NCBI RefSeq assembly: GCF_011839805.1
Contig: NZ_VWPY01000019.1
Coordinates: 1-64,000, forward strand
Direction: 5' to 3'
Source: Kineococcus rubinsiae
Lineage (GTDB): Bacteria; Actinomycetota; Actinomycetes; Actinomycetales; Kineococcaceae
DNA: 64,000 nt
Positions 1 through 17,820 of this stretch are shown piece by piece. The notes under the pieces were generated by a model. That model was not told the DNA's origin and did not search any database. It worked only from the letters and a program-made list of their open reading frames with translations. The translations under genes were made by a program, and so were the position numbers. Numbering within the stretch: the first letter of the stretch is position 1; each line of letters opens with the position of its first letter.

Positions 1-813
1 GGCTTCGGCGGCGGCGCGGGCGGCGGCCTCGGCGCGGGCCTGCCGCTCGGCCTCGATGCCGGCCTGGCGCTGCACCTCGAGGTCCACCGACGTCTGGCGC
101 AGCGCCGCGAGCCGGGAGACCAGCTCGCCGGTGCGCGCGCTGGTCGAGGCGACGAGCGCGTCGGCCGCGGCGGCCGCGTCCGCGGCACGGCGGCGGGCGG
201 CGGCCATGGCGTCGGTCGCGCGCTGCTGCTGGGCCTGGGCGGTCGCGGCGCTCTCGGCGCTCGTGTGCGCCCAGATGCGGGCGGCGTCCATGCGCTGGGC
301 GAGGTCGTCGCGCTGCGCGCCGAGCAGGTCCATCGTGGCCGAGCGGTCGATCAGCTCCTGCGGGCCGTCGGCGGCGAGCACGGCGGCGAGCGGACCGACG
401 CCCGCGGAGTTCCCGCGGTAGCGCTGCGCGGCGAGCCGGCCCAGCTCGCGGCGCGCGTCGGCGAAGTCGCCCTGCGCCTTCGCGGCGGTCGCGGCGGCCG
501 CGGTCGCCTCGTCGGTGCGCTGGGAGAGCAGCGCCTGCGCCTCGTCGTAGTCCTCCGCCGCGACCGAGAGCGCGGTCCGGCTCGCCTCGAGGTCGGCCTG
601 CTGCCCGGCGAGCTGCACCTGCAGCGCCGCGACCTGCCCCGCGACGCCCTCGGCGGCGGCCTTGGCGGCGTCGACGTCGCCCTGGCTCGGGTAGGCGGGG
701 TCCGCGGTCGCCGGGGCCGCTGCGACGCCGAGGACGGCGGGCACGGCGAGGCCGGCGGCGAGGAGCAGGAAGGAGCGACGACGCGTCTCACTCTGCGTAG
801 TCGGCTGATGCAC
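1..813 (-). CDS. Secreted coiled-coil protein, N-terminal part (probable peptidoglycan hydrolase)
   Basis: The gene is read leftward and is cut by the window edge, so only about 271 N-terminal residues are visible. It starts with GTG at 813. The N-terminus has a TRRRSFLL motif, which looks like a twin-arginine export signal, then a hydrophobic stretch ending APATA near residue 37. The rest is an Ala/Glu/Gln-rich coiled coil with a YRGNSAGVG segment. This layout is typical of the N-terminal half of actinobacterial NlpC/P60 (RipA-like) cell-wall hydrolases, whose catalytic domain would lie outside the window. The export signal and coiled coil are seen directly; the hydrolase identity is inferred. 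It could instead be an M23-type or purely scaffolding protein. Confidence 0.65.
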   Translation of the reverse strand, partial: MHQPTTQSETRRRSFLLLAAGLAVPAVLGVAAAPATADPAYPSQGDVDAAKAAAEGVAGQVAALQVQLAGQQADLEASRTALSVAAEDYDEAQALLSQRTDEATAAAATAAKAQGDFADARRELGRLAAQRYRGNSAGVGPLAAVLAADGPQELIDRSATMDLLGAQRDDLAQRMDAARIWAHTSAESAATAQAQQQRATDAMAAARRRAADAAAAADALVASTSARTGELVSRLAALRQTSVDLEVQRQAGIEAERQARAEAAARAAAEA

Positions 814-903
814 AGAGCGCAGGCTAACCGCTCATCCGGGTCACGTCACCCCCGTCCCCGTGGTCCCACCGCTCACACCGCCTCCACATCCCGGTCACCC
901 GAC

Positions 904-939
904 GCACCTGCCGGGGTAGCGTGGCTCTCAACCAGGTGC
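904..939. promoter_or_regulatory. Inverted repeat around a TAGCGT -10-like box upstream of the merR gene
   Basis: GCACCTG at 904-910 is matched by CAGGTGC at 933-939, and a TANNNT-type box (TAGCGT, 917-922) lies between the arms. It is a plausible operator/promoter for the MerR gene that starts at 976. MerR operators usually lie between -35 and -10, which does not fit perfectly, so this is a low-confidence regulatory call. Confidence 0.3.
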
Positions 940-975
940 CGGGTCGCGGCGCCCCGGCGGGGTGGAGGAGCGCGG

Positions 976-1419
976 GTGGCGGCGGGTCTGATGCAGATCG
1001 GTGAGGTCTCCGAACGCGTCGGCTACAGCCTGCGCACCATCCGCTACTACGACGAGATGGGCCTGGTCACCCCGTCCGCGCGCACCCCCGGGGGCTTCCG
1101 CCTCTACACCGAGATGGACGTCTACCGGCTGCTCGTCCTCAAGCGCATGAAGCCGCTCGACTTCTCCCTCGACGAGATGCGCGACCTGCTCGCGACGCTC
1201 GACGCGCTGGACGGCCGGCTCCCCTCGTCCACGCCCCGCGCCGAGCTGTTCGACCAGCTGGACGGCTTCCGCGCCGCCGCGGACGCGCGCGTGGAGAAGC
1301 TCCGCCAGCGCCTGGCCATGGCCGAGGAGTTCGCCCAGCAGCTGCGCGACGAGGCGGCCGGGCGCACCGACGGCTCCTCGCCCGCACCGGAGCCCCCGGT
1401 GCGGACGACCTCCGCCTGA
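976..1419 (+). CDS. MerR-family transcriptional regulator
   Basis: A 147-residue DNA-binding regulator. The N-terminal MerR helix-turn-helix reads MQIGEVSERVGYSLRTIRYY, followed by the wing (DEMGLVTPSARTPGGFRLY) and the second helix pair to about residue 75. A dimerising coiled coil (VEKLRQRLAMAEEF) and a disordered Pro/Ser tail follow. No Cys cluster typical of metal-sensing MerR proteins is present, so the effector is unknown. GTG at 976 is chosen because GGAGGAG lies five bases upstream; ATG at 991 is the alternative and leaves the HTH intact. The gene is divergent from the secreted coiled-coil protein and convergent with the SMP-30-like gene. Confidence 0.85.
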   Translation: MAAGLMQIGEVSERVGYSLRTIRYYDEMGLVTPSARTPGGFRLYTEMDVYRLLVLKRMKPLDFSLDEMRDLLATLDALDGRLPSSTPRAELFDQLDGFRAAADARVEKLRQRLAMAEEFAQQLRDEAAGRTDGSSPAPEPPVRTTSA

Positions 1420-1440
1420 CGCGCGCCCCGCGCCCGGCCC

Positions 1441-2295
1441 TCAGCCCGCGAAGGGCAGGACCGGCAGGCCCTTCACGCCGGGGACGTACCGGAACAGCGA
1501 CCCGGCGGCCGGGTCCTCGTCGCTGGGCAGGTTCTCCCGCGAGGTCGTGATGAAGAGCTCGCCGAGGTCGTCGCCGCCGAAGGCGCAGGCCGTGACCTGG
1601 CGAGCGCCGACGTCGACGACCAGGTCGAGCGTGCCGTCGGGGGCGTAGCGGCGGACGGCGGAGCCGCCGAACAGCGCGACCCACACCCCGCCCTCGGCGT
1701 CGACGGTGAGGCCGTCGGGGCGGTTCTGCTCCGCGTCCTGGACCTCGGCGAAGACGCGGCGGTGGGTCAGCCCGTCCTCGCGCTCGTAGTCGAAGACGTC
1801 GGTGCGGCCCGTGCCCGTGTCGTTGTAGTAGGCCAGCCGGCCGTCGGGGCTGAAGCCGAAGCCGTTGGAGACCGTCACGTCCTGCAGCACGGTCGAGACC
1901 GTGAGGTCGGTGTCGAGGCGGTAGAACGCACCGGCGCCCGGCTCGCCGCCCTTGATCGACCCGCAGTAGAAGCGGCCGTCGGGGTCGCAGCCGCCCTCGT
2001 TCATGCGCAGCGGCGGGTCCGCGGCGAAGACGTCGGGCAGGCGCTCGAGCTCGCCGTCCGGCCCCTCGAGGACGAAGCCCCGCTCGACCGCGACGATCGC
2101 GCCGCCGCCGGTGCGCGGGCGCACGACGGCCGCGACCTCGCCGTAGGTGCGGCGGCTGACGCTGCCGTCGGCGGCCAGGCTCACGACGTCGCCCGCGAGC
2201 ATGTCGACGAAGCGCAGGCCCCCCCACGAGTCTGACCAGCAGGGGCCCTCGCCGTGGTAGACGATCCGGTCGGTGATCCGCTCTGCGCTGGGCAC
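1441..2295 (-). CDS. SMP-30/gluconolactonase/LRE-family protein
   Basis: A 284-residue six-bladed beta-propeller of the SMP-30/gluconolactonase family, which hydrolyses sugar lactones or related esters using a divalent metal. The expected ligand positions are visible: Glu in the opening GEGPCW motif, Asn in SNGFGFSPDG and Asp in RPDGLTVD, with the MNEGGCDPDGRFYCG blade motif between. Length is normal for the family and there is no signal peptide, so it is cytoplasmic. The GTG start at 2295 is supported by a -10-like box six bases upstream, so the mRNA is probably leaderless. The substrate cannot be told from sequence. Confidence 0.85.
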   Translation of the reverse strand: MPSAERITDRIVYHGEGPCWSDSWGGLRFVDMLAGDVVSLAADGSVSRRTYGEVAAVVRPRTGGGAIVAVERGFVLEGPDGELERLPDVFAADPPLRMNEGGCDPDGRFYCGSIKGGEPGAGAFYRLDTDLTVSTVLQDVTVSNGFGFSPDGRLAYYNDTGTGRTDVFDYEREDGLTHRRVFAEVQDAEQNRPDGLTVDAEGGVWVALFGGSAVRRYAPDGTLDLVVDVGARQVTACAFGGDDLGELFITTSRENLPSDEDPAAGSLFRYVPGVKGLPVLPFAG

Positions 2296-2301
2296 GGCAG
2301 G

Positions 2302-2307
2302 AGGTTA
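2302..2307 (-). promoter_or_regulatory. -10 box (TAACCT) for the SMP-30 gene, leaderless spacing
   Basis: On the minus strand TAACCT matches TANNNT and ends six bases before the GTG start at 2295. This is the spacing seen at actinobacterial leaderless promoters. Confidence 0.45.
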
Positions 2308-2359
2308 CCGGCGGGGCCCGCCCGCAGCGCGGCGGTGCCTGCCGGCGCGCTGCGGCGGC

Positions 2360-3067
2360 CTAGAGCGCGGCGGTGGCGAGGTAGGCGAGCTCCGGGCGCC
2401 CCGAGCCGCCGTAGCGGGGTTCGCGCCGCGCGCGCCCCGCCGAGGCCAGGTGCTCGAGGTAGCGGCGGGCGCTGACCCGCGACAGCCCGGTCGCCGTCGC
2501 GGCCTCGGCGGCCGAGAGCCCCTGCGCGGCGGGCGCTGCCCGCAGCGCCTCCACGACGAGGCCGAGCATCTGCGGCGTCACCCCGCGCGGCGGCGTCGAG
2601 GACGTGCGCAGCTGGCCGAGGGCGGCGTCGATCGCCTGCTGGTCCAGCGCCCCGCCGTCGGAGCGCTCCGCGACCCGGGCGACCTCGTCGCGGAAGCGGG
2701 CGTAGGCGCGCAGCCGGTCCTCCAGCGCCGCCGCCGGGAACGGCTTGAGCAGGTACTGCACGACCCCCATCGACAGGGCCTGCCGCACGACGGCCTGGTC
2801 GCGCGCCGCGGTGACGGCGATGACGTCGGCGGGCACGGCCGCGGCCCGCAGCGCGCGCAGCACCTGCAGGCCGTCGACGTCGGGCAGCGTCATGTCGAGC
2901 AGCACGAGGTCGACGCCGCCCATCCCGACGGCCGCGAGCGCCTCGCGCCCGGAGTTCACGGCCGCGACGACCTCGAAGCCGCTGATCCCGCCGACGTAGC
3001 GGGCGTGCGCCGCGGCGACGACCGGGTCGTCCTCCACGACGAGCACCCGCACCGGGCCCGCGCTCAC
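2360..3067 (-). CDS. Response regulator, CitB/DcuR type
   Basis: A 235-residue response regulator. The receiver domain has the acidic pair at residues 12-14 (VVEDD), a probable phosphoacceptor Asp58 in LLDMTLPDVDG and the conserved Lys in QYLLKPF. The C-terminal region (about 165-225) is a winged-helix-like output domain with the GLSRVSARRYLEHL helix typical of CitB/DcuR/DpiA regulators of C4-dicarboxylate and citrate uptake. Its GTG start overlaps the stop of the upstream sensor kinase by four bases (GTGA), so the two are translationally coupled. The likely target is the adjacent symporter gene at 4786. Confidence 0.9.
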   Translation of the reverse strand: MSAGPVRVLVVEDDPVVAAAHARYVGGISGFEVVAAVNSGREALAAVGMGGVDLVLLDMTLPDVDGLQVLRALRAAAVPADVIAVTAARDQAVVRQALSMGVVQYLLKPFPAAALEDRLRAYARFRDEVARVAERSDGGALDQQAIDAALGQLRTSSTPPRGVTPQMLGLVVEALRAAPAAQGLSAAEAATATGLSRVSARRYLEHLASAGRARREPRYGGSGRPELAYLATAAL

Positions 3068-4752
3068 CCCCGCACCGGGGCAGGCCCTGAGGCGGGCACC
3101 GGCACCGGCAGGACCACGACGACGGTCCCGCCGCCGTCGTCGACCGTGACGGGCTCGACGACCTCGACGCGGCCGCCGTGGCGGCGCACCACCTGCCCGA
3201 CGAGCGCGAGGCCGAGCCCGCGGCCGTGGGCGCCGTCCTGCGTGAGCACCTGCTCCTTGCGCGACCAGCCGCGGCGCATGGCCTGGCGGAGGCCCTCGGC
3301 GGGGAACCCCGGCCCGGAGTCGGTCACGCGCACCTCGACGGGGCCCGCGGCCGCGGAGATCTCCACGCGCACCCAGCGGGGCTCCTCCCCGCCGAGGGCC
3401 GCCTCGACGGCGTTGTCCAGGAGGTTGCCGAGGACGGTGACGAGGTCGCGGGCGGGCAGCAGGCCGGCGGCCAGCGACGTGCCCGGCTCCACCTCGAGCT
3501 CGACCCCGCGCTCGGCGGCCTGCGCGGACTTGCCGATGAGCAGGGCGGCGACGGCCGGGTCCGCGACGTCGGCGACGACGAGGTCGGTGAGCTGCTGGGC
3601 CTCGGTGAGCTCGGCCGTCGCGAACCGGACGGCCTCGTCGGCGCGGCCCTGCTCGACGAGGGTGACCACGACGTGCAGCCGGTTCGCGGCCTCGTGGGCC
3701 TGCGAGCGCAGGGCGTCGGCGAGGCCGCGGACCGCGTCGAGGTCGCGGGTCAGGGCCTGCAGCTCGGTGTGGTCGCGCAGGGTCAGGACGGTGCCGACGC
3801 GGCGGCCCTCCCAGTGCGCGGTCGTGTGGTTGACCAGCAGCACCCGGTCGTCGGTGACCTGCAGGTCGTCGGCGACCTCCTCCCCCGCCTCGACCAGGCG
3901 CCGCACGGCCGGCGGGAGCACGACGCCGTCCTCCCCCGCCGGCAGCAGGCGCCGCGCCTCGTCGTTGACGACCTGCACGCGCCCCGCGGGGTCGAGCACG
4001 ACGAGGCCCTCGCGCAGGGAGTGCAGGACGGCGTCGTTGACCTCCCACGCGCGCGTGAGGTCGGCGGGTTCCATGCCGTGGGTGCGGCGGCGCACCCAGC
4101 GCGAGAGGGCGAGGCTGCCGAGCACCGACAGCAGCAGGGCCAGCGCGACCGCCCCGAGCAGGACGGGCAGCTGGGCGGTGAGCTCCCGCGTCACCGACCG
4201 GGTGGTGATGCCCACGGCGACCGCGCCGACGACGGGACCGCTCGTCGCGGACGTGCCGGCCGCGCGCACGGGCACGACGGCGCGCACCGAGGGGCCGAGG
4301 GTGCCCGTGTAGGTCTCCACGACGCGCCCGCCGGCCAGCGCGGCCTCGGCGTGGCCGATGAACGTGCGCCCGATCTCCGCGGGGTCGGGGTGCGACCAGC
4401 GGGTGCGGGAGGTGTCCATGACGGTGACGAAGTCGGTGCCCGTGGTGGTGCGGACCTCCTCGGCGTGGCCCGCGACGACGGCCCGGGCGCCGGGCGGGGC
4501 GTCCCGCGCCGTCAGCGCCTCGCGCACGTCGGGCGAGCCGGCCACCGAGAGGGCGACGTCGGTGACGACGGTGGTCGCGTCGGCGCGGGTGTCGGTGCGC
4601 ACGTGCCAGACGACGGCGCCGGCCGACGCGAGCACCACGAGGGTCACGACGGCGAGCTGCAGCGCGAAGATCCGGCCGGCCAGCGTCCACCGCCGGCGCC
4701 GGCCGTGAACGAAAGGTGCAGAAGCTCGCCGTGGCCTCGACGCTGTGAGCAC
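3064..4752 (-). CDS. Sensor histidine kinase, CitA/DcuS type
   Basis: A 562-residue membrane sensor kinase. TM1 (about residues 25-45) and TM2 (about 180-200) flank an extracellular sensor region of the PDC/CitAP type. Then come a PAS-like segment (EGLVVLDPAGRVQVVNDEARRLL), the H-box QAHEAANRLH, and an HATPase domain with NLLDNAVEA (N-box), DSGPGFP (G1) and HGRGLGLAL (G2). CitA-family kinases bind citrate or C4-dicarboxylates outside the cell and phosphorylate a CitB-type regulator. GTG at 4752 is chosen for its GGAGG five bases upstream. Only 33 bases separate it from the divergent symporter start. Confidence 0.9.
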   Translation of the reverse strand: MLTASRPRRASAPFVHGRRRRWTLAGRIFALQLAVVTLVVLASAGAVVWHVRTDTRADATTVVTDVALSVAGSPDVREALTARDAPPGARAVVAGHAEEVRTTTGTDFVTVMDTSRTRWSHPDPAEIGRTFIGHAEAALAGGRVVETYTGTLGPSVRAVVPVRAAGTSATSGPVVGAVAVGITTRSVTRELTAQLPVLLGAVALALLLSVLGSLALSRWVRRRTHGMEPADLTRAWEVNDAVLHSLREGLVVLDPAGRVQVVNDEARRLLPAGEDGVVLPPAVRRLVEAGEEVADDLQVTDDRVLLVNHTTAHWEGRRVGTVLTLRDHTELQALTRDLDAVRGLADALRSQAHEAANRLHVVVTLVEQGRADEAVRFATAELTEAQQLTDLVVADVADPAVAALLIGKSAQAAERGVELEVEPGTSLAAGLLPARDLVTVLGNLLDNAVEAALGGEEPRWVRVEISAAAGPVEVRVTDSGPGFPAEGLRQAMRRGWSRKEQVLTQDGAHGRGLGLALVGQVVRRHGGRVEVVEPVTVDDGGGTVVVVLPVPVPASGPAPVRG

Positions 4753-4785
4753 GATCACCTCCACCGTTCCCCCCAGGAGGGTCCC

Positions 4786-6144
4786 ATGAGCAGAGACGCT
4801 CACCAGACGGTCGCGCAGCCCAAGCGCGACCGCACGCACGTCCTCTACATCGCCGTGATCGTGGCCGTGGTCCTCGGCATCGCCGTCGGGCTCGTCTTCC
4901 CCGACGTCGGCAAGGCCCTGAAGCCGCTCGGGACGGGCTTCGTCGACCTCGTCCGGATGATGATCTCGCCGATCATCTTCTGCACCATCGTGCTCGGCAT
5001 CGGCTCCGTGCGGAAGGCGGCCTCGGTCGGGAAGGTGGGCGGCACGGCGCTGCTCTACTTCGTCGTGATGTCGACGTTCGCGCTGGCGATCGGCCTGGTC
5101 ATCGGCAACCTCCTGCCCGTCACCGACCTGCAGCTCACCGATGCCGTGCGCGGCGCCGGGAGCAAGCTCGCCGAGGAGCCGACCAGCACCACGGAGTTCC
5201 TCCTCGGGATCATCCCGACCTCGCTGCCCTCCGCCCTCACCGACGGCTCGGTGCTGGAGACCCTGTTCGTCGCGCTCCTGGTGGGCTTCGCGATCCAGGG
5301 CCTCGGGACGGCCGGCGAGGGTGCGCTCAAGGCCGTCGAGGTCATCCAGAAGATCGTGTTCAAGGTGCTCGCGATGGTCATGTGGGTCGCGCCGATCGGG
5401 GCCTTCGGCGCCATCGCCGCGGTCGTCGGGGAGACGGGCGTCGACGCCCTCAAGGCGCTCGGCACGGTGATGCTCGGGTTCTACGCGACCTGCGCGGTGT
5501 TCATCTTCGTGGTGCTGGGCGTGATGCTGAAGGTCGTCACGAAGGTCTCGATCTTCTCGCTGCTGCGCTACGTGGCCCGGGAGATCCTGCTCATCGTCTC
5601 CACGTCGAGCTCCGAGACCGCGCTGCCGCGGCTCATCGCGAAGATGGAGCACCTGGGCGTCAGCCGCTCCACCGTCGGGATCGTCGTGCCGACGGGGTAC
5701 TCCTTCAACCTCGACGGGACCGCGATCTACCTGACGATGGCGTCGCTGTTCATCGCGAACTCCCTCGGCGACCCGCTGTCGGTCTCCGAGCAGATCTCGC
5801 TGCTGGTGTTCATGGTCATCGCGTCCAAGGGCGCGGCCGGCGTCTCCGGCGCCGGGCTGGCCACGCTGGCCGGTGGCCTCGCGTCGCACAAGCCCGCCCT
5901 CCTGGACGGGGTCGGGCTCATCGTGGGCATCGACCGGTTCATGTCCGAGGCCCGCGCGGTGACGAACTTCATCGGCAACTCGGTCGGCACCCTGGTCATC
6001 GGGACGTGGACGCACCAGATCGACCGGGCCCGGATGGAGCTCGTGCTCTCCGGCGGGGCGCCGTTCGACGAGCGCACCATGGACCCGAGCGTGAGCCGGG
6101 TCGACGCGCGCACCGAGGAGCGGGCCTCGGCGACGACCCTGTGA
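4786..6144 (+). CDS. Dicarboxylate/amino acid:cation symporter (DAACS, DctA/GltP-like)
   Basis: A 452-residue inner-membrane transporter with about eight hydrophobic segments and two hairpin loops. Family signatures are visible: the serine-rich hairpin STSSSETALP (about 267-276), the PTGYSFNLDGTAIYL motif of TM7 that binds Na+ or substrate, and GVSGAGLATLAG in hairpin 2. It imports C4-dicarboxylates or acidic amino acids together with cations. The ATG has a strong AGGAGG at 4775-4780. It is divergent from a CitA/CitB-type pair that very likely senses its substrate and induces it, as in classical dct/dcu systems. Confidence 0.92.
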   Translation: MSRDAHQTVAQPKRDRTHVLYIAVIVAVVLGIAVGLVFPDVGKALKPLGTGFVDLVRMMISPIIFCTIVLGIGSVRKAASVGKVGGTALLYFVVMSTFALAIGLVIGNLLPVTDLQLTDAVRGAGSKLAEEPTSTTEFLLGIIPTSLPSALTDGSVLETLFVALLVGFAIQGLGTAGEGALKAVEVIQKIVFKVLAMVMWVAPIGAFGAIAAVVGETGVDALKALGTVMLGFYATCAVFIFVVLGVMLKVVTKVSIFSLLRYVAREILLIVSTSSSETALPRLIAKMEHLGVSRSTVGIVVPTGYSFNLDGTAIYLTMASLFIANSLGDPLSVSEQISLLVFMVIASKGAAGVSGAGLATLAGGLASHKPALLDGVGLIVGIDRFMSEARAVTNFIGNSVGTLVIGTWTHQIDRARMELVLSGGAPFDERTMDPSVSRVDARTEERASATTL

Positions 6145-6150
6145 GGCGCT

Positions 6151-6215
6151 GATCCGCCGCGATGAGACCCCCTGCGTGACAGCCCGATCACGCAGCGGAG
6201 TAGTTGCGGCGGATC
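6151..6215. terminator. Nested inverted repeats after the symporter gene
   Basis: An outer 10-bp repeat (GATCCGCCGC at 6151-6160, GCGGCGGATC at 6206-6215) encloses an inner 8-bp repeat (CTGCGTGA at 6172-6179, TCACGCAG at 6188-6195). The spacers are about equal, so the whole can fold as one interrupted hairpin. It probably ends symporter transcription, but there is no U-tract, and it could also be a protein-binding palindrome for the globin operon downstream. Confidence 0.4.
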
Positions 6216-6291
6216 CGCCCGATGGGGGTGCCCGGGGGGTGATCGGCTGCGTACGCTCCGGCGGACCGGTCACCCATCCGAGGAGAGTGCG

Positions 6292-7116
6292 ATGACGCCC
6301 CCCGCGACCACCACCCGCGCCCCCGGCGCGAGCGGTCCCGTCGTCCACGACGGCTCCCCCGTCGCCGCGCAGGCGGCGCGGCTGCTGCAGCTCGCCCAGC
6401 GCACCGCGGACGAGGCCGTCGCCGAGGCGCGCTCGGAGGCGGCGCTCGTGCTCGCCCGGGCCGGGGAGCGCGCCGCGGCGCTGGAGGCGGAGGCCGGGCG
6501 CCGGGCCCAGGCCGTGGAGCAGGCCGCCCGCGACGAGCGTGACCGGCTGCAGGCCGAGATCGACCTCCTGGAGTCCTCCCGCGCGCAGGTCCGCACGCAC
6601 GTGCAGCAGCTCACCGCGCTGCTCACCGACGTCCTGGACCGCACGGACCCCGCCGCTCCCGCCGCCCCGACCGGGGCCGCCCCGACCGGGGCCGCCGCGC
6701 AGGAGCACGAGCAGACCGTCGAGCAGGCACCCCAGCAGGAAGAGGCCCCCGTGTCGATCTACGAGCAGCTCGGCCGCGAGCACGGCATCGCGAAGGCCGT
6801 CCAGCACTTCTACGAGCGCGTCGTCGCCGACCCCCAGCTCGCCCCGTACTTCACGGGCACCGACATGACGACGCTGCGGCGGCACCAGACGGCCCTGCTC
6901 GTGCAGGTCACCGGCGGCCCGGTGCAGTACGAGGGCCGCGACCTGGCGAAGGCGCACGCCGGGCTCGGCATCACCTCCGAGCACTTCGACCGCGTGGTGG
7001 GCCACCTCGCGGGCACCCTGACCGACCTGGGCGTGCCGGCGGACGTCGTCGGGACCGTGGGCGGCGCCCTGGCGGCCCACCGCGACGAGATCGTCGAGCA
7101 GCCCGTCGCGGGCTGA
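6292..7116 (+). CDS. DivIVA-like coiled coil fused to a group I truncated haemoglobin
   Basis: A 274-residue two-part protein. Residues about 22-122 form a long coiled coil (ARLLQLAQRTADEAVAEAR and onward) resembling the C-terminal coiled coil of actinobacterial DivIVA/Wag31 proteins. A Pro/Ala/Gln linker follows, and residues about 153-268 are a truncated haemoglobin. The globin starts SIYEQLGREHGI, has a B10-type Tyr in QHFYERV, and a probable proximal haem His in LAKAHAGLGI. Group I truncated haemoglobins bind O2 or NO. No DivIVA N-terminal membrane-binding domain is present here; it is encoded two genes downstream. ATG at 6292 is preceded by GAGGAGAG. First gene of an operon at 6292-9137. 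Confidence 0.85.
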   Translation: MTPPATTTRAPGASGPVVHDGSPVAAQAARLLQLAQRTADEAVAEARSEAALVLARAGERAAALEAEAGRRAQAVEQAARDERDRLQAEIDLLESSRAQVRTHVQQLTALLTDVLDRTDPAAPAAPTGAAPTGAAAQEHEQTVEQAPQQEEAPVSIYEQLGREHGIAKAVQHFYERVVADPQLAPYFTGTDMTTLRRHQTALLVQVTGGPVQYEGRDLAKAHAGLGITSEHFDRVVGHLAGTLTDLGVPADVVGTVGGALAAHRDEIVEQPVAG

Positions 7117-7155
7117 GCGCCGGACCGCCACCAGCAGCAGAGGAAGAGGAAGAGC

Positions 7156-8298
7156 GTGGACATCCCCAGGATGCGGGCGAACTTCGCCCGCTCCGCCGCG
7201 GCCGGTGACGAGGCCCCGCTGTTCTTCTACTCCCACCTGTTCCTGAGCCACCCCGAGACGCGGGCCCTCTTCCCGGTCTCGATGGTCCACCAGCGCGACC
7301 GCCTGTTCCGGGCCCTCGGGCAGGTCGTCGACCTCGTGGACGACCTGGACTCGCTGGTCCCCGTGCTGCAGGCGCTGGGGCGCGACCACCGCAAGTTCGG
7401 CACCGTCGCGGAGCACTACCCCGCGGTCGGCGCGAGCCTGCTGGTCACGCTGGAGCACTTCGACGAGGACTGGGACGCCGAGCTCGCCGCGGACTGGACG
7501 GCGGCCTACGGCCTCGTCGCCCAGGTGATGGTCGAGGCGGCGCAGGAGGACTCCGCGGCCCCGGCCTGGTGGGACGCCGACGTCCTGTCCGTCGAGCGCC
7601 GCACCCTGGACCTCGCCGTCCTGCAGGTGCGCCCGCGCACGCCGCTGCCCCACCTGGCGGGTCAGGCCGTCTCGGTGGAGACCGCGCTGCGGCCGCGGCT
7701 GTGGCGCTACTACGCCCCGGCCAACGCCCCGCGCCCGGACGGCACCCTCGAGCTGCACGTGCAGGCCCACGACGGCGGCCCGGTCAGCTCCGCCCTCGCC
7801 CGCCAGGTGGTCGCGGGCGACGTGCTGCACCTGGGCCCGGCCGTCGGCACCTGCACCCTGCCCGCGGACTCCGACCGCGACCTGCTGCTGGTGGCCGGCG
7901 GCGTCGGCCTGGCCCCGCTGAAGGCCCTGCTGGACCAGGTGGCCCGCGAGGGGCCGGAGCGCCGGGTGGACCTCGTCCTCGGCGCCCGCACCGGGCGCGA
8001 GCTCTACGACCTGCCCGCCCTGCGCGAGGCGGAGCAGAAGCACCCCTGGCTGACCGTGACGCCCGTGGTCTCCGACGACGAGCTCGCCACCGGCGTCGAG
8101 CACGGCGAGCTGACCGACGTCCTGCGGGCCCGCGGGCCCTGGACGAGCCGGGAGGCGTTCGTGGCCGGTCCGGAGCCGCTGGTGCACGACGTCGCCGCGG
8201 CGCTCACCGCCCACGGCCTGCCGCCGGCCCGCGTGCGCACGCAGGCCTTCACCCCCAGCCGACAGAGTCCCACCGTCGAAGGAGAGGTTTCCGCATGA
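7156..8298 (+). CDS. Globin-ferredoxin reductase protein (flavohaemoglobin-like)
   Basis: A 380-residue protein with an N-terminal globin (about 1-135) and a C-terminal ferredoxin-NADP reductase module. The globin shows B10 Tyr in LFFYSHLF, an E7-region Gln in VHQRDRLF and a probable proximal His in GRDHRKFGTVAEHY. The reductase shows a modified FAD-binding RYYAPANAP and the NAD(P)-binding GGVGLAPLKALL. Flavohaemoglobins detoxify NO by dioxygenation using NAD(P)H. The FAD motif departs from the usual RxYS, so activity may differ. GTG at 7156 follows AGAGGAAGAGGAAGAG. It overlaps the next gene by four bases (ATGA). Confidence 0.88.
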   Translation: MDIPRMRANFARSAAAGDEAPLFFYSHLFLSHPETRALFPVSMVHQRDRLFRALGQVVDLVDDLDSLVPVLQALGRDHRKFGTVAEHYPAVGASLLVTLEHFDEDWDAELAADWTAAYGLVAQVMVEAAQEDSAAPAWWDADVLSVERRTLDLAVLQVRPRTPLPHLAGQAVSVETALRPRLWRYYAPANAPRPDGTLELHVQAHDGGPVSSALARQVVAGDVLHLGPAVGTCTLPADSDRDLLLVAGGVGLAPLKALLDQVAREGPERRVDLVLGARTGRELYDLPALREAEQKHPWLTVTPVVSDDELATGVEHGELTDVLRARGPWTSREAFVAGPEPLVHDVAAALTAHGLPPARVRTQAFTPSRQSPTVEGEVSA

Positions 8299-9137
8299 GC
8301 GGCGACGAGCAGCCGGAGAGCCCCGCGGAGTGGAGGCTCACGCCGTCCGTCGTGCAGGACGTCCGCTTCAACCGCGCGACCCGGATGCACCCCGGGTACG
8401 CGGACTCCGAGGTCGACACCTTCCTCGCGCGCATCCAGACGGAGCTGCAGCGGCTGGTGGCCGAGAAGGCCGAGCTGCGCGAGCAGGTCCACGCCCTGCG
8501 CTGGGCGGCCGACGAGCGCGCGCGGCAGGAGCGCGAGGCCCGCGAGGCGGCGGACGCCGAAGGGGTGGGCGCCGAGGGAGTGGTCGACGCGACGCCGCCG
8601 CCCCCGGCGCGCGACGAGGTGACCGTCCAGGCCGTGCACATCCTGGCCGCGGCCCAGCAGACGGCGGACCAGTACGTCGCCGAGGCCGAGGACTTCAGCC
8701 GGCGCCTCGCCCAGGAGGCGCGCGAGCACCACGAGAAGGTGGTGCAGGAGGCGCGCGCCGAGGCGGACACCGTCCTGCGCCAGGCGGCCGCCCTGGCCGC
8801 CGTCGCCCGCGAGGCGACGCCCGTCCCGGAGCGCGACACGAAGGAACTGCAGGAGGAGGTGGCCTACCTCAAGGCGTTCGGGCAGGCCTGCCGGACCCAG
8901 CTGCGCTCCTACCTCGAGGCCCTGCTGGACGACGTGGAGCACGAGTGGGGCCGCGCCGACCCGCACGCCGTGACCCCCCGCGCGCCGCGCCCGCCCGCGA
9001 CGGTGGACCTCACCGCGGTGGAGGGACCGGCGGCGCAGCGCCCGACGGCGGGCGCCTCGCCGGACGGCGCGGGCGCTTCGCCGGACGGGGCGGGCGCCAC
9101 GGCGGTCAACGGCAGCACGGTCGTCGACGTGCGCTGA
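8295..9137 (+). CDS. DivIVA-domain coiled-coil protein
   Basis: A 280-residue cytoplasmic scaffold. The N-terminal DivIVA-like motif (VQDVRFNRATRMHPGYADSEVDTFL written in parts: DVRFN, HPGYADSEVDTFL) lies at about residues 20-47 and is followed by a coiled coil to about 85. A second coiled coil (HILAAAQQTADQYVAEAE onward, about 118-180) comes next, then a short helix pair and a low-complexity tail with two SPDGAGA repeats. DivIVA/Wag31 proteins bind curved membrane at poles and septa. Its second coiled coil resembles that of the globin fusion two genes upstream, so the two may form mixed filaments. Last gene of the globin operon. Confidence 0.88.
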   Translation: MSGDEQPESPAEWRLTPSVVQDVRFNRATRMHPGYADSEVDTFLARIQTELQRLVAEKAELREQVHALRWAADERARQEREAREAADAEGVGAEGVVDATPPPPARDEVTVQAVHILAAAQQTADQYVAEAEDFSRRLAQEAREHHEKVVQEARAEADTVLRQAAALAAVAREATPVPERDTKELQEEVAYLKAFGQACRTQLRSYLEALLDDVEHEWGRADPHAVTPRAPRPPATVDLTAVEGPAAQRPTAGASPDGAGASPDGAGATAVNGSTVVDVR

Positions 9138-9152
9138 GCGGGCCCCGCCCCC

Positions 9153-10387
9153 TCAGCGCGCGCCGAGCGCCAGCGTCTCCGCGAACAGCGGGGCGATCTG
9201 CTCGAACTCCAGCAGGAACCCGTCGTGGCCGTAGGGCGAGCGCACCGTGCGCAGGCCCCCCACGGTCGAGCCCGCGGCCTCGGCGATGCGCCGGGAGTCC
9301 GCGAGCGGGTAGAGCCGGTCGGAGTCGACGCCCGCGACGACGAGCGGGACGGTCGTCGCGGCGAGAGCCGCCTCGGTGCCGCCGCGCCCGAGGCCGACGT
9401 CCCACGTGTTCATGGCGTCGGTCAGCGTGACGTAGCTGCCCGCGTCGAAGCGGTGCACGAGCTTCTCGGCGTGGTGGTCGAGGTAGGACTGCACGGCGAA
9501 GCGGCCGGGCCCGTCCGGCGACCAGGGGTCCTCGCCGAGCTGGGCCGCGCGGCCGAAGCGGGCGTCGAGCTCCTCGGCCGTGCGGTAGGTCAGGTGCGCG
9601 AGGCGCCGGGCGAGCCCGAGCCCCGCGTGCGGGCCCGCGCCGTCGGGGAGGTCGTGGTAGTCCCCGCCGTTCCAGCCCGGGTCGGACAGCACGGCCGTGA
9701 TCTGCGCGGACTGCGCGCCGATCTGGTCGGCCGTGGACGCCGCGCAGGTGGCCAGCACGAGCGCCGCGCCGACCCGGTCGGGCTGCGCCGCAGCCCACTC
9801 CAGCGACCGCATGCCGCCCATCGACCCGCCGAGGACGGCGGCGAAGCGCCGCACGCCCAGCTGGTCGGCCAGGCGCGCCTCGGCGGCCACCTGGTCGGCG
9901 ACCGTGAGGCGCGGGAACGCCGAGCCCCACGGGCGGCCCGTCCCGGGCCGGCGCGCGGCCGGCCCGGTGCTGCCCTGGCAGCCGCCGAGGACGTTGGCGG
10001 CCACGACGAACCAGCGGTCGGTGTCCAAGGCGCGCCCCGGGCCGACGAGCGTCTGCCACCAGCCCGGCGTGGGGTGCCCCTCGCCGGCGGGGCCGGTGAC
10101 GTGGGCGTCGCCCGTGAGGGCGTGCTCGACGAGGACGGCGTTGGAGCCGTCCGCGGCGAGCGTGCCCCACGTCTGGTACGCCAACCGCACCTGCGGGAGC
10201 GTCCCGCCGAGCTGCAGCCGCAGGTCGCCGACGTCGGCGAAGCGCCGCTCGCCCACCGGGTCACCCTCGCGCCACGCGCCCGTCGCGGGCGGTGCGGGCC
10301 GGTGGAACCGGGCCCTCACCTGCGCGTCCTCCACGTCGACGACCACCGCTCCTCCAGACCCCGGACCCTGAACCGCAGGAACCAGTG

Positions 10388-10391
<4 letters not shown>
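9153..10391 (-). CDS. metX: Homoserine O-acetyltransferase
   Basis: A 412-residue alpha/beta-hydrolase-fold enzyme that acetylates homoserine with acetyl-CoA for methionine synthesis. The nucleophile Ser lies in GGSMGGMRSLEWA, the acid in GVDSDRLYPL and the His in YGHDGFLLE. The substrate motifs NVLGGCQGSTGP and GRPWGSAFP are intact. GTG at 10391 overlaps the stop of metY by four bases (GTGA), so the pair is one coupled unit. Length and motifs fit MetX rather than a succinyltransferase. The 3' end lies 15 bases from the convergent DivIVA-domain gene. Confidence 0.95.
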
Positions 10392-11740
<1,349 letters not shown>

Positions 11741-12114
11741 GGGGTCCTCTTCGGGGGCTGGGTCGGGTGTCGGGGGGCGGGGTCAGCGGCCCGGTCGACA
11801 CCAGCAGTCGAAGAGGTAGGGACGGCGGGAGGGCCAGAACGGGTCGAGGACGACCGTTCGCACCGCCCCCAGCACAGGACCCGACATGCAGTGATGGTGC
11901 CCGCGCGCGCCCTCAGGGGGCAACTCGTTCCCCGAACGGCGCAGCGCCACGCCGGGGAAGATCCTTCGACGCGCCGACCAATCCACCGTGTGTGTCGGAC
12001 CGAACACGGAGCGAAAGAGAGGCGCGTCTGGCAGTCTGGGCGCCAACAACTGTGCGCGACCGCGCGATCACCGTATGCCACTTGCCTTGAGTGCCCTCAG
12101 CCATTGGAGCGTCG
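11741..12114. other. Long divergent leader region between metY and the 12115 gene
   Basis: This 374-base stretch has no convincing gene. On the minus strand it is the 5' region of metY. It was searched for the conserved SAM-II/SAM-IV cores and none was recognised. It contains a possible 34-residue leader peptide (11783-11887, minus) and several G/C-rich inverted segments. The lower-GC part near 12000-12090 probably holds the divergent promoters. Confidence 0.4.
11783..11887 (-). CDS. Possible leader peptide upstream of metY
   Basis: A 34-residue open frame (ATG at 11887) ends about 40 bases before the metY start, with the C-terminal sequence PYLFDCWCRPGR. Two cysteines just before the stop are reminiscent of cysteine-responsive attenuator peptides of actinobacteria. 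No good ribosome-binding site precedes the ATG and the peptide lacks the usual RRHVDL motif, so the call is weak. The frame is also open upstream to an ATG near 12049. Confidence 0.22.
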   Translation of the reverse strand: MSGPVLGAVRTVVLDPFWPSRRPYLFDCWCRPGR

Positions 12115-12492
12115 ATGGACGACCAGCACACCCCCTCCGACGGCGGATCCGCCCCCGTGCCCGGGACCACCGCGGGCGTCCGCGACGACGACGTCCAGGT
12201 CATCCGCTGGGACACGCCGGCCTGGGCCTCGCAGGGCCTGGAGGTGGAGGGCGGCTGGCTGCACTCCTACGAGGCGCGCGTCGTGCCCCTGGAGGGTGAC
12301 GAGGGCGCCGAGCGCCCCTGCCCCGTCCGCCTGGAGAGCACCGACCTCGCCTACGCCGAGGGCGGCCAGACCGTCGTGCGGCGCTTCGGCCCCCGCGTCT
12401 TCATCGGCGACATCGCCCAGCTCTCCCTGCCCGAGGCGCAGCGCCTGGTCCTCGCGCTGACCGAGGTCATCCAGCGGGTCGAGCGCAGCTGA
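12115..12492 (+). CDS. Conserved hypothetical protein, 125 aa
   Basis: A small acidic protein. The first 27 residues are low complexity, followed by a beta-rich region (VIRWDTPAWASQGLEVEGGWLHSYEARVVPL) and a C-terminal helix (SLPEAQRLVLALTEVIQRV). No catalytic motif, signal peptide or membrane segment is visible. ATG at 12115 is preferred over 12091 because GGAG lies six bases upstream. The product is not recognised; the fold may be a small barrel with a dimerising helix. It precedes the DUF2079 gene by 25 bases and may be cotranscribed with it. Confidence 0.7.
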   Translation: MDDQHTPSDGGSAPVPGTTAGVRDDDVQVIRWDTPAWASQGLEVEGGWLHSYEARVVPLEGDEGAERPCPVRLESTDLAYAEGGQTVVRRFGPRVFIGDIAQLSLPEAQRLVLALTEVIQRVERS

Positions 12493-12517
12493 CGCGGGGC
12501 GGGCACCATGGGGGCCC

Positions 12518-13882
12518 GTGCCCCCGCGTCCCGCCCGCCTCCTGACCCTCGCCGCCGGCGTGGTGTCGGTGCTCGTCTGCGCGGGCATCGGCACCGGCCG
12601 CTACCAGGCCGGCGAGGCGCACACCTATGACCTGGCGATCTTCAGCCAGTCCGCGCAGTCCTGGGCGCAGCTGCGCTGGCCGACGGCCGACGTGCTCGCC
12701 CCCGGCCGCCCCCTGCTCGGCGACCACTTCTCCCCCGCCACGGTGGTCTTCGGCCTGGCGTGGCGGCTGTGGGCCGACCCGCGCTCCCTGCTGCTGCTGC
12801 AGGCGCTCCTGCTCGGCCTCGGCACGGCCCTCGTCGCCCGCTGCGCCGCGCGCCACCTGCGCACCGTCCCGGCCGTCGCCGTCGCGGTCGGCGCGCTGCT
12901 GGCCCACGGCACGCTCGCCGCGGCCCGCTTCGACGTCCACGAGGTGGCCCTCGCCGTGCCGCTGCTCGCGCTGAGCGGGACCGCCCTGCTGGAGCGCCGC
13001 GACCGCGCCGCCGCCCTGTGGTCGCTGCCGCTGCTGCTGGTCAAGGAGGACATGGGCGCGACCGTCCTGGCGGTCGCGGCCGTGCTGTGGCTGCGCGGCG
13101 CGCGGCGCCTCGGGGTGCGCCTTGCCCTCGTCGCCGTCCTCGGGGTGGCCGTCGCGCTGGCGACCATGTGGGCCGTCGACCCCGACCACGACCTCAGCCG
13201 CGTCGGGTCCTTCTCCGACCCCGGCTCCGGCGTGCTGCCGCGCCTCGGGCTCGTCGCGGCCGTCGTCGCCGGCGGCGGACTGCTCTGGGTCGCCTCGCCG
13301 ATCGCGCTGCTGGCCCTGCCGACCCTGGCCTGGCGCCTGGTCAGCTCCCAGCCCAGCTACTGGTCCTCGCAGTTCCACTACGACGCCGTGCTCGTGCCCG
13401 TCGCGGCCGTCGCGCTCGTCGACGTGCTGCGCCGGCACCCGCGGCGGCAGGCGCCGCTGGCCGTCCTCGCGGCCCTGGCGTGCGTCGCGACGACCGCGGT
13501 GGTGCTGGACGTGCGGACGCTGCCCTCGCCCCTGGCCGCCTCGACGTGGCGCCCCTCCCCCGTCGTCACCGACCTGCGGGCCGCGGCCCGGGCCGTGCCC
13601 GCGGGGGCCCCGCTCGCCGCCGACAACACCTCCGGCGCCTACCTCGTCACCGGCCACCGCGTCTCGACGTGGTCGCCCGACCAGACCGACGCCGAGCTCG
13701 GCCCCTGGGTCGTGCTCGACACCGCGCGCAGCTCCCTGTCGACCACGCCCGCGCAGAAGGCGGCCTGGATCGACGCCGCCGTCGCACGCGGCGGGGAGGT
13801 CGTCGCACGGGTGGGCGCCACCAGCGTGCTGCGCCTGCCCGTGGCAGGATCCCGGGCGACCCCGGCCGCGGAGGCGGGGTGA
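12518..13882 (+). CDS. DUF2079 polytopic membrane protein
   Basis: A 454-residue integral membrane protein with roughly nine hydrophobic segments. Hallmarks of the DUF2079 family are present: HTYDLAIFSQS and LLGDHFSPATV in the first extracytoplasmic loop, ARFDVHEVALAVPLL, and LLVKEDMGATV. The family resembles GT-C glycosyltransferases, which use lipid-linked sugars outside the membrane, but its reaction is unknown. The C-terminal region (about 375-440) is soluble. The start is a GTG at 12518; a nearby ATG at 12508 is out of frame. Confidence 0.85.
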   Translation: MPPRPARLLTLAAGVVSVLVCAGIGTGRYQAGEAHTYDLAIFSQSAQSWAQLRWPTADVLAPGRPLLGDHFSPATVVFGLAWRLWADPRSLLLLQALLLGLGTALVARCAARHLRTVPAVAVAVGALLAHGTLAAARFDVHEVALAVPLLALSGTALLERRDRAAALWSLPLLLVKEDMGATVLAVAAVLWLRGARRLGVRLALVAVLGVAVALATMWAVDPDHDLSRVGSFSDPGSGVLPRLGLVAAVVAGGGLLWVASPIALLALPTLAWRLVSSQPSYWSSQFHYDAVLVPVAAVALVDVLRRHPRRQAPLAVLAALACVATTAVVLDVRTLPSPLAASTWRPSPVVTDLRAAARAVPAGAPLAADNTSGAYLVTGHRVSTWSPDQTDAELGPWVVLDTARSSLSTTPAQKAAWIDAAVARGGEVVARVGATSVLRLPVAGSRATPAAEAG

Positions 13883-13899
13883 GGAACTCCGGAGGACGC

Positions 13900-14931
13900 A
13901 TGAGCACGCAGACCGCCCGCACCGCCCAGGCCGTGCGCATCACCGCGCCCGGCGAGCTGGAGGTCGTCCAGGTCGACGTGGCCGCGCCCGCACCGGGCAA
14001 CGTCCTCGTCGAGGTCGCCTGGTGCGGCATCTGCGGCTCCGACCGCGAGATCTTCGCCGGCACCCGCCCCGCGGAGTTCGTCCGCTACCCCGTCGTGCCC
14101 GGCCACGAGTGGTCCGGCACGGTCGTCGAGGTCGGCGAGGGCGTGCCCGCCGAGCTCGTGGGCCGCGGCACCGTGGGCCAGGGCATCCGGACCTCCTCGA
14201 CCGCCCCCGCCTCCGTCGCGGGCGACACGGCCGCGTGGCCGCAGGAGTACGAGGAGACCGGGTTCACGCTGCCGGGCGGCTGGGCGCAGTACCTGGAGCT
14301 GCCCTCGCGCTACCTGCACCTGCTGCCCGAGGGCGCCGACCTGCGCTCCGCCGCCGGCATCGAGCCCGCCGCGTGCGTGGCCGAGGCCGTCCTGCTCGCC
14401 GAGATCACGGTCGGCAGCCGGGTCGCCGTCATCGGGGCCGGCGCGCTGGGCCTGCTCGCCACCCAGCTGCTCAAGGGGGCCGGCGCCGAGGTGACGGTGC
14501 TGCACCACAACGGCTCCCGCGAGGAGCTCTCGCGCACCTGCGGCGCGGCGCACTACGCGCTGTCCGCGGACGCCGAGGCCGACGGCCTGCTCGGCACCTT
14601 CGACGCCGTGGTCGAAGCCGCGGGCGTGCCCGGCATCGCCCGGCTCGCGGTGCGCCTCGGCCGCCCCGGCGCGCGCGTCGTCCTCACGGGCATCCCCGCC
14701 AACGACGCGGACGACCTGTCCTCGCTCGAGCTCGTCTCGCGCCTGGTCCAGGTGAAGACGGTCTTCGGGGCGCCGACCCGCGCCTGGGCCTACGCCGTGC
14801 GCGCCTTCGCCCTCGGCATCCTGGACCCGTCCGTGATCGTGACCCACGAGTTCCCCCTCGCCGAGGCCGGCGCGGCCCTGGAGGAGCTCGGCAGGCGCTC
14901 CGGCGCGCTGAAGGTGCTGCTCAAGCCCTAG
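13900..14931 (+). CDS. Zinc-type alcohol dehydrogenase-like oxidoreductase (MDR superfamily)
   Basis: A 343-residue medium-chain dehydrogenase. The N-terminal GroES-like domain has catalytic zinc ligands in CGICGSD and GHEWSGTV, and the Rossmann domain has VIGAGALGLLATQLL. The lobe that normally carries four Cys for the structural zinc is replaced here by a Cys-free stretch (RTSSTAPASVAGDTAAWPQE), so only one zinc is expected. Such enzymes oxidise polyols or sugars such as sorbitol or threonine-like substrates; the substrate is unknown. ATG at 13900 has GGAGG upstream. It overlaps the convergent DedA gene by four bases at the 3' ends. Confidence 0.88.
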   Translation: MSTQTARTAQAVRITAPGELEVVQVDVAAPAPGNVLVEVAWCGICGSDREIFAGTRPAEFVRYPVVPGHEWSGTVVEVGEGVPAELVGRGTVGQGIRTSSTAPASVAGDTAAWPQEYEETGFTLPGGWAQYLELPSRYLHLLPEGADLRSAAGIEPAACVAEAVLLAEITVGSRVAVIGAGALGLLATQLLKGAGAEVTVLHHNGSREELSRTCGAAHYALSADAEADGLLGTFDAVVEAAGVPGIARLAVRLGRPGARVVLTGIPANDADDLSSLELVSRLVQVKTVFGAPTRAWAYAVRAFALGILDPSVIVTHEFPLAEAGAALEELGRRSGALKVLLKP

Positions 14932-15572
14932 CGGGACGCGTGCGCGCGCCGGGCGCGCAGCCGCTGGACGAGGCCGACGACGCTGGAGGCCACCAGCCCG
15001 AGGACGAGGGCCACCGCGACCCCGGCCAGCGGCCGGTCGGAGACGCTGCGCCCCAGCAGGCCCAGCAGCGCGTAGGCCACCGTCCAGGTCAGGGCGGGCA
15101 CCACGTCGGCGACGGCGAAGCGGCGCACGGGGTAGTCCACGGACGCCGCCGCGAGCATCACCGGGACGCGGGCGCCCGGCAGCAGCCGCGACGTGAGCAG
15201 GGTCCGGACGTCGTGGGTGACGAGGCGGCGGCCCAGCTCCTCGACGTGGGCGCTCGCGCGGCCCGCGAGCGCCCGGCGCTCGAGCAGGCGGGTCAGCCCG
15301 GACTCCGAGCGGTGCAGCAGCGCGTACAGGACGACGTCGCCCGCCCACGCGGCGGCGGCCGCGACCACGAGGACCGAGCCGAGGGCCTCGGGCGAGCGGT
15401 GGTGGGCCAGCGCCGCCATCGCGCTGACCGCGGCCCCCGTCGGCACCACGGGCAGGACGGCGCCGACGGTCACGGCCGCGAGCAGGACGGCGAGCGCCGC
15501 CAGCCAGGACCCCTCCGCCGCGGCGGCCGGGTCCAGCAGGTGTCCCAGCACGGGGCCACTCCACCACGGCAC
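14928..15572 (-). CDS. DedA/VTT-family membrane protein
   Basis: A 214-residue membrane protein with about five hydrophobic segments. The family pattern is visible: a re-entrant region LPVVPTGAAVSAMAALA, then SRLLPGARVPVMLAAASVDYPVRRFAVAD, which matches the conserved R-x-x-PG-R/P loop of DedA proteins. The family takes part in membrane lipid handling and proton-motive-force homeostasis. The acidic motif of E. coli DedA is not obvious. GTG at 15572. The C-terminus is basic (RLRARRAHASR). Confidence 0.78.
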   Translation of the reverse strand: MPWWSGPVLGHLLDPAAAAEGSWLAALAVLLAAVTVGAVLPVVPTGAAVSAMAALAHHRSPEALGSVLVVAAAAAWAGDVVLYALLHRSESGLTRLLERRALAGRASAHVEELGRRLVTHDVRTLLTSRLLPGARVPVMLAAASVDYPVRRFAVADVVPALTWTVAYALLGLLGRSVSDRPLAGVAVALVLGLVASSVVGLVQRLRARRAHASR

Positions 15573-15610
15573 CGTCCCGGCGTGTCGCCGCGGTGCGGCA
15601 TCCTGTCGGC

Positions 15611-16156: not shown

Positions 16157-16228
16157 GGCTGCGCCGGCGAGATCCCGGCCCTGCCGGACAGGGAGGGGCG
16201 ACGGGGCGGACGCGGCGGTGGGGGCGGC

Positions 16229-17664: not shown

Positions 17665-17820
17665 GGCGCGCCCGGCTCCCCCGCCGGCCCGGGCCCTCCG
17701 CCCGGCGCCGGCGCGGCGCGCAGGCGGGGTTCCGCCCCCCGCACGACACCGGGAGTTCACCTCTCCCGGCTGGCGGGACCGTGGCGGCAGTGCTGGCATG
17801 GGTCCGGGACGTCCAGGGGC

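Follow-up and report, generated by a model that had tools for sequence, protein, structure and literature searches.

A conserved operon of globin and DivIVA-domain genes in Kineococcus rubinsiae and other actinobacteria, probably encoding a membrane-anchored gas-handling unit

DivIVA is known as an organiser of bacterial growth and division, and bacterial globins are known as soluble or loosely membrane-associated nitric oxide (NO) enzymes. In Kineococcus rubinsiae, genes of both kinds stand side by side at positions 6292-9137 of a 64,000-nucleotide stretch of contig NZ_VWPY01000019.1, the whole of which is called the window here. An earlier note on this DNA had described three genes, encoding a truncated haemoglobin fused to a DivIVA-like coiled coil, a flavohaemoglobin and a DivIVA-domain protein, and had interpreted them as a possible gas-sensing polar scaffold. 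Open reading frames (ORFs) and profile searches confirm this layout; the interpretation as a whole is partly supported. The unit is wider than the earlier reader could know, as the gene association recurs across genomes of the class. In this study, we propose from sequence comparison that the operon genes probably constitute an undescribed, functional, membrane-anchored gas-handling unit, because they are found side by side in many lineages of actinobacteria.

The locus in Kineococcus rubinsiae

The operon encodes three proteins, P1 to P3, with the following features:

6292..7116, plus strand: P1, group I truncated haemoglobin behind a fused DivIVA-type coiled coil, 274 amino acids (ORF list, profile searches)
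6355..6645, plus strand: P1 coil, residues 22-118, homologous to the DivIVA C-terminal coil (model, sequence matches)
6646..6747, plus strand: P1 linker, residues 119-152, low model confidence
6748..7101, plus strand: P1 truncated haemoglobin domain (profile, HbN alignment, Foldseek)
7156..8298, plus strand: P2, flavohaemoglobin-family protein with globin, flavin (FAD) and nicotinamide (NAD) domains, 380 amino acids (profile searches, alignments)
8280-8287, plus strand: AGGAGAGG, ahead of the P3 start and within the 3' end of P2
8295..8298, plus strand: ATGA, four bases shared by the P2 stop and the P3 start
8295..9137, plus strand: P3, DivIVA-domain protein of a subfamily separate from Wag31, 280 amino acids (profiles, tree)
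8334..8534, plus strand: P3 N-domain of the DivIVA type, residues 14-80 (match of the family profile to 6lfa, the lipid-binding domain of Wag31)
8607..8969, plus strand: P3 coiled coil and C-terminal helix, residues 105-225 (alignment, long helices in the model)

A purine-rich stretch able to act as ribosome-binding site precedes each of the three genes. The overlap of the last two genes had been pointed out before, and it makes translational coupling of P2 and P3 likely. Across 20 operons, the flavohaemoglobin and DivIVA genes overlap by four bases in 16 and by 8 bases in one and are separated by a 10-nt gap in three, counts that depend on the start codons we chose. A conserved C-terminal tail of P2 (G-x-V) was considered as a docking peptide and rejected, because the likely ribosome-binding site of P3 encodes G-x-V.

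The gene association across actinobacteria

Relatives of P3 in named genomes were collected by a pattern scan that covers close relatives. In all 19 of them a member of the flavohaemoglobin family lies directly upstream, in one case as a 113-residue remnant. These relatives come from Kineococcus, Geodermatophilus, Modestobacter, Motilibacter, Actinoallomurus, Sphaerimonospora and Nonomuraea, and thus from the orders Kineosporiales, Geodermatophilales, Motilibacterales and Streptosporangiales.

With the P2 profile, 141 places (E<=1e-60) were identified, spread over 113 of the 345 genomes sampled from the class. All were read with 1.5-2 kb on either side where the contig allowed, and the model used to detect adjoining DivIVA genes combined operon and Wag31-type DivIVAs. 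Within a distance of 400 nt, a DivIVA gene follows downstream at 19 of the 141 places and a truncated haemoglobin precedes upstream at 18, both being present at 18. Hence a truncated haemoglobin stands directly upstream of 18 of the 19 DivIVA-linked flavohaemoglobins as compared to none of the 122 others (Fisher p = 8e-22, a value that ignores kinship). Counted as linked is one weak DivIVA match of 27 bits without truncated haemoglobin (L126/L154, genome G204). In the 122 unlinked places no DivIVA match occurs anywhere in the stretch read; at L049 and L121, absence is not shown because these have under 100 nt of downstream sequence, and L061 and L201 have 278 and 119 nt upstream. Since the genome searches score few candidates per genome, weak members may be missed, and linked members score highest by construction because the set A2 seeded the searches. 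The 18 genomes with all three genes belong to families coded f1, f5, f8, f9, f89 and f99. At the unlinked place nearest to the linked clade (L035/L217, G300) neither partner lies within 7 kb. In a phylum-wide sample of 296 genomes, about 27 of which belong to the class, the P2 family adjoins the P3 family in G000, G225 and G268 only. As a side observation, a genome outside the class (G042) carries a closely related flavohaemoglobin at the edge of a contig, with the downstream side missing and no truncated haemoglobin in 3.8 kb upstream; it was not counted.

Twenty-two stretches of 8-20 kb (11 from a set of 17 stretches, ten named loci and positions 1-20000 of the window) were compared for further members. 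Families common to at least three lineages (E<=1e-10, >60 bits) include the three operon genes; beyond these, some loci have a second flavohaemoglobin resembling Hmp, Actinoallomurus has a single-domain globin, and the rest are frames that overlap the genes named. Further genes were rejected as operon members, as no other family recurs in the stretches compared.

The first gene varies. It is a truncated haemoglobin in the 18 operons of the class sample, that of K. rubinsiae being fused to the coil, and in Kineococcus it encodes either a coil-globin fusion or the coil alone. The flavohaemoglobin and DivIVA genes form the constant core, to which a further globin is often added.

Trees of flavohaemoglobins and DivIVAs

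In the flavohaemoglobin tree all 40 DivIVA-adjacent sequences fall on one side of a branch and 97 unlinked ones on the other (approximate likelihood ratio test, SH-aLRT, 97). The tree was built by a quick method, contains long branches and duplicate loci and covers 110 of the 141 class places (locus numbers no higher than L133), 31 weaker places being left out; the remnant L015 was left out of both A2 and the tree. Operon DivIVAs (29 rows: 28 chosen operon loci and the window) separate from Wag31-type and other DivIVAs (18 rows: the own DivIVA of K. rubinsiae and 17 chosen places) at 100/100. The flavohaemoglobin tree shows a single origin and long co-inheritance of the DivIVA-linked proteins.

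P1, a truncated haemoglobin on a DivIVA coil

Residues 155-250 of P1 match the truncated haemoglobin family (PF01152, E=7.7e-20, 71.7 bits against a cut-off of 21). The closest solved structure is Mycobacterium tuberculosis HbN (1idr, E=5.1e-24), and Foldseek matches to 4xdi and 1idr (TMt 0.69-0.74) agree with the 2/2 globin fold. The coil was modelled, from a two-row alignment, as a single 95-residue helix (residues 23-117) with per-residue confidence (pLDDT) mostly of 96-98. The linker is poorly kept, with 24% identity to Kineococcus vitellinus across 34 residues.

Direct matches of the coil to DivIVA and Wag31 profiles are weak (PF05103, E=0.81; NF050102, E=0.0012). When P1 was searched against the 345 class genomes, its coil by itself picked up frames that are 36-43% identical, with E values as low as 3.5e-12. 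These matches overlap DivIVA matches in six genomes of family f6 (G023, G128, G171, G182, G193 and G246), and three of the six (L176-L178) have a clear N-terminal DivIVA N-domain. The orthologue of K. vitellinus (L002 2798-3781, 327 residues, GTG start chosen by us) is 63% identical to P1 of the window and combines a DivIVA N-domain, the coil and a truncated haemoglobin within one protein, the N-domain scoring 19.8 bits, slightly below the curated cut-off of 22. As the coil matches of relatives read as DivIVA and K. vitellinus P1 has a DivIVA N-domain, the P1 coil is, by sequence homology, a DivIVA coil. The earlier description of the coil as DivIVA-like thus holds, with the correction that P1 of the window lacks the N-domain: no lipid-binding N-domain is found in it by profile and none is visible in the open frame upstream.

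The earlier note had also proposed that P1 and P3 could coassemble, as their coils share an AQxTADxxVAEA-type sequence. The P1 coil does resemble P3 (z 6.2), but P3 is not singled out, since the Wag31-type DivIVA of K. rubinsiae itself scores equally (z 6.3). We therefore rejected the shared motif as proof of P1-P3 pairing.

The coil and the globin were matched together in K. rubinsiae only, among the 345 class genomes, and in two of the 11 genomes of the genus, K. rubinsiae and K. vitellinus. Five partial P1 matches reaching toward the coil in class genomes are globins without coil, and thus unfused. Two further Kineococcus operons (L007 of TRM81007 and L011 of K. indalonis) have the coil gene without globin. 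The earlier note had named a lack of conservation of the fusion or gene order in relatives as refuting its idea. The gene order is conserved far beyond the genus, but the fusion was found in Kineococcus only and was rejected as the conserved feature. As a side observation, K. rubinsiae encodes a second truncated haemoglobin, group II-like by eye (G000:C9:2172-2525, L137).

P2 and the haem pockets

P2 is filed as flavohaemoglobin-family only, because its score lies below the cut-off of the NCBIfam equivalog for NO-inducible flavohaemoproteins (Hmp). Site names follow Hmp/HbN numbering, mapped by alignment. In P1, we take Tyr174 to be B10, Phe187 CD1, Leu195 E7, Gln199 E11 and His222 the proximal F8 (via HbN); in P2, Tyr25 is presumably B10, Phe39 CD1, Gln46 E7, Leu50 E11, His78 F8 and Tyr88 G5.

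A loss of haem-binding residues on alignment, which the earlier note had named as refuting its idea, did not appear: the ligands are kept in P1, P2 and their relatives. After removal of four duplicate loci (L051=L002, L052=L011, L053=L007, L022=L008), 36 of the 40 linked flavohaemoglobins remained for residue counts. F8 His, CD1 Phe, E7 Gln, E11 Leu, G5 Tyr and the FAD Arg are each present in 36/36, B10 is Tyr in 31 and Phe in five, and the Ser of the RxYS site is kept in 28. Helix H is shorter by a gap in the linked proteins as compared to classical flavohaemoglobins. Operon truncated haemoglobins have F8 His, B10 Tyr and CD1 Phe in 19/19 each; E11 is Gln in 12 (including the window), Met in six and Leu in one. 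The haem residues of P1 and P2 thus fit NO dioxygenase-type haem enzymes without proving such activity. The pockets look enzyme-like, and on this basis a tethered enzyme appears at least as likely as a sensor.

P3, a dedicated DivIVA-domain protein

The DivIVA domain of P3 is well supported (PF05103, E=1.2e-11, 45.2 bits against a cut-off of 28), and its score of 85.6 bits on the NCBIfam Wag31 equivalog stays below the cut-off of 260. The Wag31-type DivIVA of K. rubinsiae lies elsewhere, on contig C58, adjoining a SepF-like ORF recognised by eye. A profile of the P3 family matches the Wag31 lipid-binding domain 6lfa with E=7.8e-18. Foldseek with P3 gave no significant match: the Wag31 N-domain 6lfa reached E=0.054, and GpsB N-domains lay at 0.8-1.1.

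Wag31 Ile18 is described as a candidate lipid contact (PMC7340271); the equivalent residue is hydrophobic in 18 of 20 aligned P3 members. The motif AQQTADQY is invariant in 20/20, and the C-terminal helix is also well kept. Between the window and K. vitellinus, identity is 83% in the coil, 65% in the N-domain and 40% in the tail, the coil and C-terminal helix being best kept. Wag31 is described as tethered to the membrane by its N-domain and as binding proteins by its C-terminal part (PMC12097788). By analogy, we infer that the conserved coil of P3 is likely its client-binding part.

Relation to known systems

P3 shares with the polar scaffold DivIVA/Wag31 the family match to 6lfa and the order of N-domain, linker and coil; it differs in belonging to a separate subfamily tied to globin genes and in scoring below the Wag31 equivalog cut-off. 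P1 of the window keeps Tyr B10, Gln E11, Leu E7 and His F8 of M. tuberculosis HbN, a group I truncated haemoglobin and NO dioxygenase. Unlike HbN, it is fused to a DivIVA coil, and its gene shares an operon with those of a flavohaemoglobin and a DivIVA protein. P2 has the globin, FAD and NAD domains, the haem pocket and the R and Y of RxYS in common with Hmp/FHP, and is set apart by Ala in RxYS, a shorter helix H, the sub-cut-off score and the link to DivIVA.

A hemoglobin-like protein fused to Roadblock/LC7 (Protein Data Bank 3wfw), likened here by its molecule name only, is also a bacterial globin fusion, although its globin class and partner domain differ from those of P1. Roadblock/LC7 is presumably a domain of a polarity/cytoskeleton-adaptor family. 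In Legionella, a truncated haemoglobin and a ferredoxin reductase of FNR type are co-transcribed from one NsrR-controlled bicistronic operon, and several membrane-affine globins are reported in the same review (PMC3820574). That operon has no scaffold protein, and here the reductase belongs to a second globin.

The earlier statement that no system of this kind is described agrees with the literature searched. The matches listed contain no description of a DivIVA-globin operon or system, most subscription journals being outside the search scope, and the literature searched gave no joint mention of DivIVA with truncated hemoglobin, nor of DivIVA, globin, operon and actinobacteria together. Two reviews mention both DivIVA and a flavohaemoglobin: one has the globin word in its reference list only (PMC4255298), and the flavohaemoglobin passages of the other deal with the Streptomyces NO cycle (PMC5133688).

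Interpretation

The three genes almost certainly form a functional unit. That the DivIVA gene is merely carried along within the operon, by chance or by shared transcription, is scarcely credible: such hitch-hiking would suit a unit of only three genes, but truncated haemoglobins accompany 18 of 19 DivIVA-linked places and 0 of 122 others, the flavohaemoglobins form a single clade and the DivIVAs a separate subfamily, the unit is kept across several families while other neighbours change, and P1 is a fusion.

Taken as a whole, a membrane-tethered haem-redox module, most likely an NO dioxygenase, on a dedicated DivIVA scaffold has in our judgement an even chance of being the correct reading. 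Genes that are fused in one lineage and neighbours in others are a classical hint of physical contact, and the N-domain-coil-globin fusion of K. vitellinus hints that globin and DivIVA may also touch in the unfused operons. We favour the module because of this hinted contact between DivIVA and truncated haemoglobin, the links of truncated haemoglobins to reductases and the membrane-affine globins reported. P3 would bind the membrane via its N-domain and polymerise via its coils, with the truncated haemoglobin and the flavohaemoglobin-family protein as its clients. The flavohaemoglobin would oxidise NO with O2, and its reductase domain might also re-reduce the truncated haemoglobin. The scaffold could thus bring electron donor and acceptor together at the membrane, the entry point of lipophilic NO and O2, where respiration would be the target. 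In Kineococcus, fusion to a DivIVA coil may have made the truncated haemoglobin part of the scaffold itself; the fused protein includes the membrane domain in K. vitellinus and lacks it in the window. The domains, haem residues, gene order, co-inheritance and fusion are observed in this proposal, whereas physical assembly, position at membrane or pole, NO dioxygenase chemistry and electron transfer between the two globins are what we infer.

Several findings weigh against the module. All three genes occur together in just 18 of the 345 class genomes, and the operon flavohaemoglobin is present in 4 of 11 Kineococcus genomes. Nonomuraea (L016-L020) has no globin directly upstream of the flavohaemoglobin-DivIVA pair, and Geodermatophilaceae operons have no truncated haemoglobin adjoining it. 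Sphaerimonospora retains DivIVA beside a reduced flavohaemoglobin. The residue equivalent to Wag31 Ile18 is Arg in P3 of the window and of K. vitellinus, followed directly by Met/Val. Coarse patterns for NsrR, DosR and Rex sites gave no recurring match in the DNA ahead of 34 operons (for L012, ahead of the second gene); Rex/Crp-like matches lie upstream in L003 and L148 only. P2 scores 127.9 bits on the NO-inducible flavohaemoprotein equivalog, whose cut-off is 432, and carries RYYA at the RxYS site, with Ala for Ser. The B10 Phe members are those of Nonomuraea. A loss of the proximal-triad Glu of classical flavohaemoglobins (H23, Hmp E135) is at most possible: the aligned column holds Ala/Ser in all 36 linked members, but Ser also stands there in the six Hmp-like outgroup rows, and the alignment has gaps in this stretch.

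Some of these P2 features would suit globins that form a membrane-near redox system for O2, peroxide or disulfides rather than NO: the equivalog score is low, B10 is Phe in Nonomuraea and the RxYS Ser is Ala in the window, and an unusual M. tuberculosis flavohaemoglobin with a reported non-NO redox role sets a precedent (PMC8883573). Against this stand Tyr at B10 in 31/36 and E7 Gln, F8 His and FAD Arg in 36/36, and we regard such chemistry as distinctly improbable. Sensing, by which O2/NO binding to the globins would alter assembly of a P1/P3 polymer and so control sites of growth or division, is unlikely. A globin covalently joined to a DivIVA coil, in K. vitellinus together with an N-domain, would lend itself to it, and the DivIVA-like coil of P1 could join P3 or Wag31. 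However, the pockets are of O2/NO-enzyme type, one with an attached reductase that would be costly for a sensor, no fusion was found outside Kineococcus, and the profile of the sensor-type Protoglobin reaches 14.9 bits, below its cut-off of 25; the Pfam matches of the operon proteins include no kinase, cyclase or DNA-binding domain. We also think it improbable that the operon serves chiefly to make its DivIVA, as a protein specialised for polarity or the septum to which the globins supply redox or oxygen information or local protection, for example in branching or sporulation. The coil and C-terminal helix are indeed the best conserved part of P3, DivIVA outlasts the reduction of the flavohaemoglobin in Sphaerimonospora, and the two Kineococcus operons without truncated haemoglobin retain the coil gene; yet none of the 19 named P3 relatives is without an adjoining flavohaemoglobin-family gene or remnant, and K. 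rubinsiae has a separate Wag31-type DivIVA.

Extending the haem-redox module, we tentatively envisage, at somewhat less than even probability, a 'gas-handling cortex', in which a second DivIVA polymer, not devoted to growth, would have evolved to keep globins that consume NO/O2 at the membrane, and maybe at poles or septa, in several actinobacterial orders. If true, the cell would have a haem-redox compartment that is confined in space yet needs no organelle. A DivIVA subfamily inherited with globins would place the chemistry of NO and O2 on a cytoskeletal scaffold and might help to explain why some bacteria keep several globins, as one set may serve a fixed place in the cell. The three-gene unit offers a clean genetic handle, and soil actinobacteria, Kineococcus and Motilibacter among them, carry members of it.

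Neighbouring genes and side observations

In the window, an ORF resembling a DctA-type transporter by eye ends at 6144, upstream of P1, and a convergent ORF, metX-like by eye, lies downstream of P3. In Actinoallomurus, a single-domain globin related to the globin of P2 replaces the truncated haemoglobin (L012 about 3446-3829, the same in L013 and L014). A second Hmp-like flavohaemoglobin lies near the Geodermatophilaceae loci L003-L006, L009 and L010, on the opposite strand in five and on the same strand directly ahead in L009. Reductase-like matches to the P2 profile of 57 and 64 bits occur near two of these loci (L003 6602-7159; L010 about 80-745). In Sphaerimonospora (L015 4498-4839), the 113-residue protein comprises about the first 100 residues and the last few of a flavohaemoglobin, and the DivIVA gene overlaps it by ATGA; from its sequence it may be either a product of degeneration or a genuine short globin.

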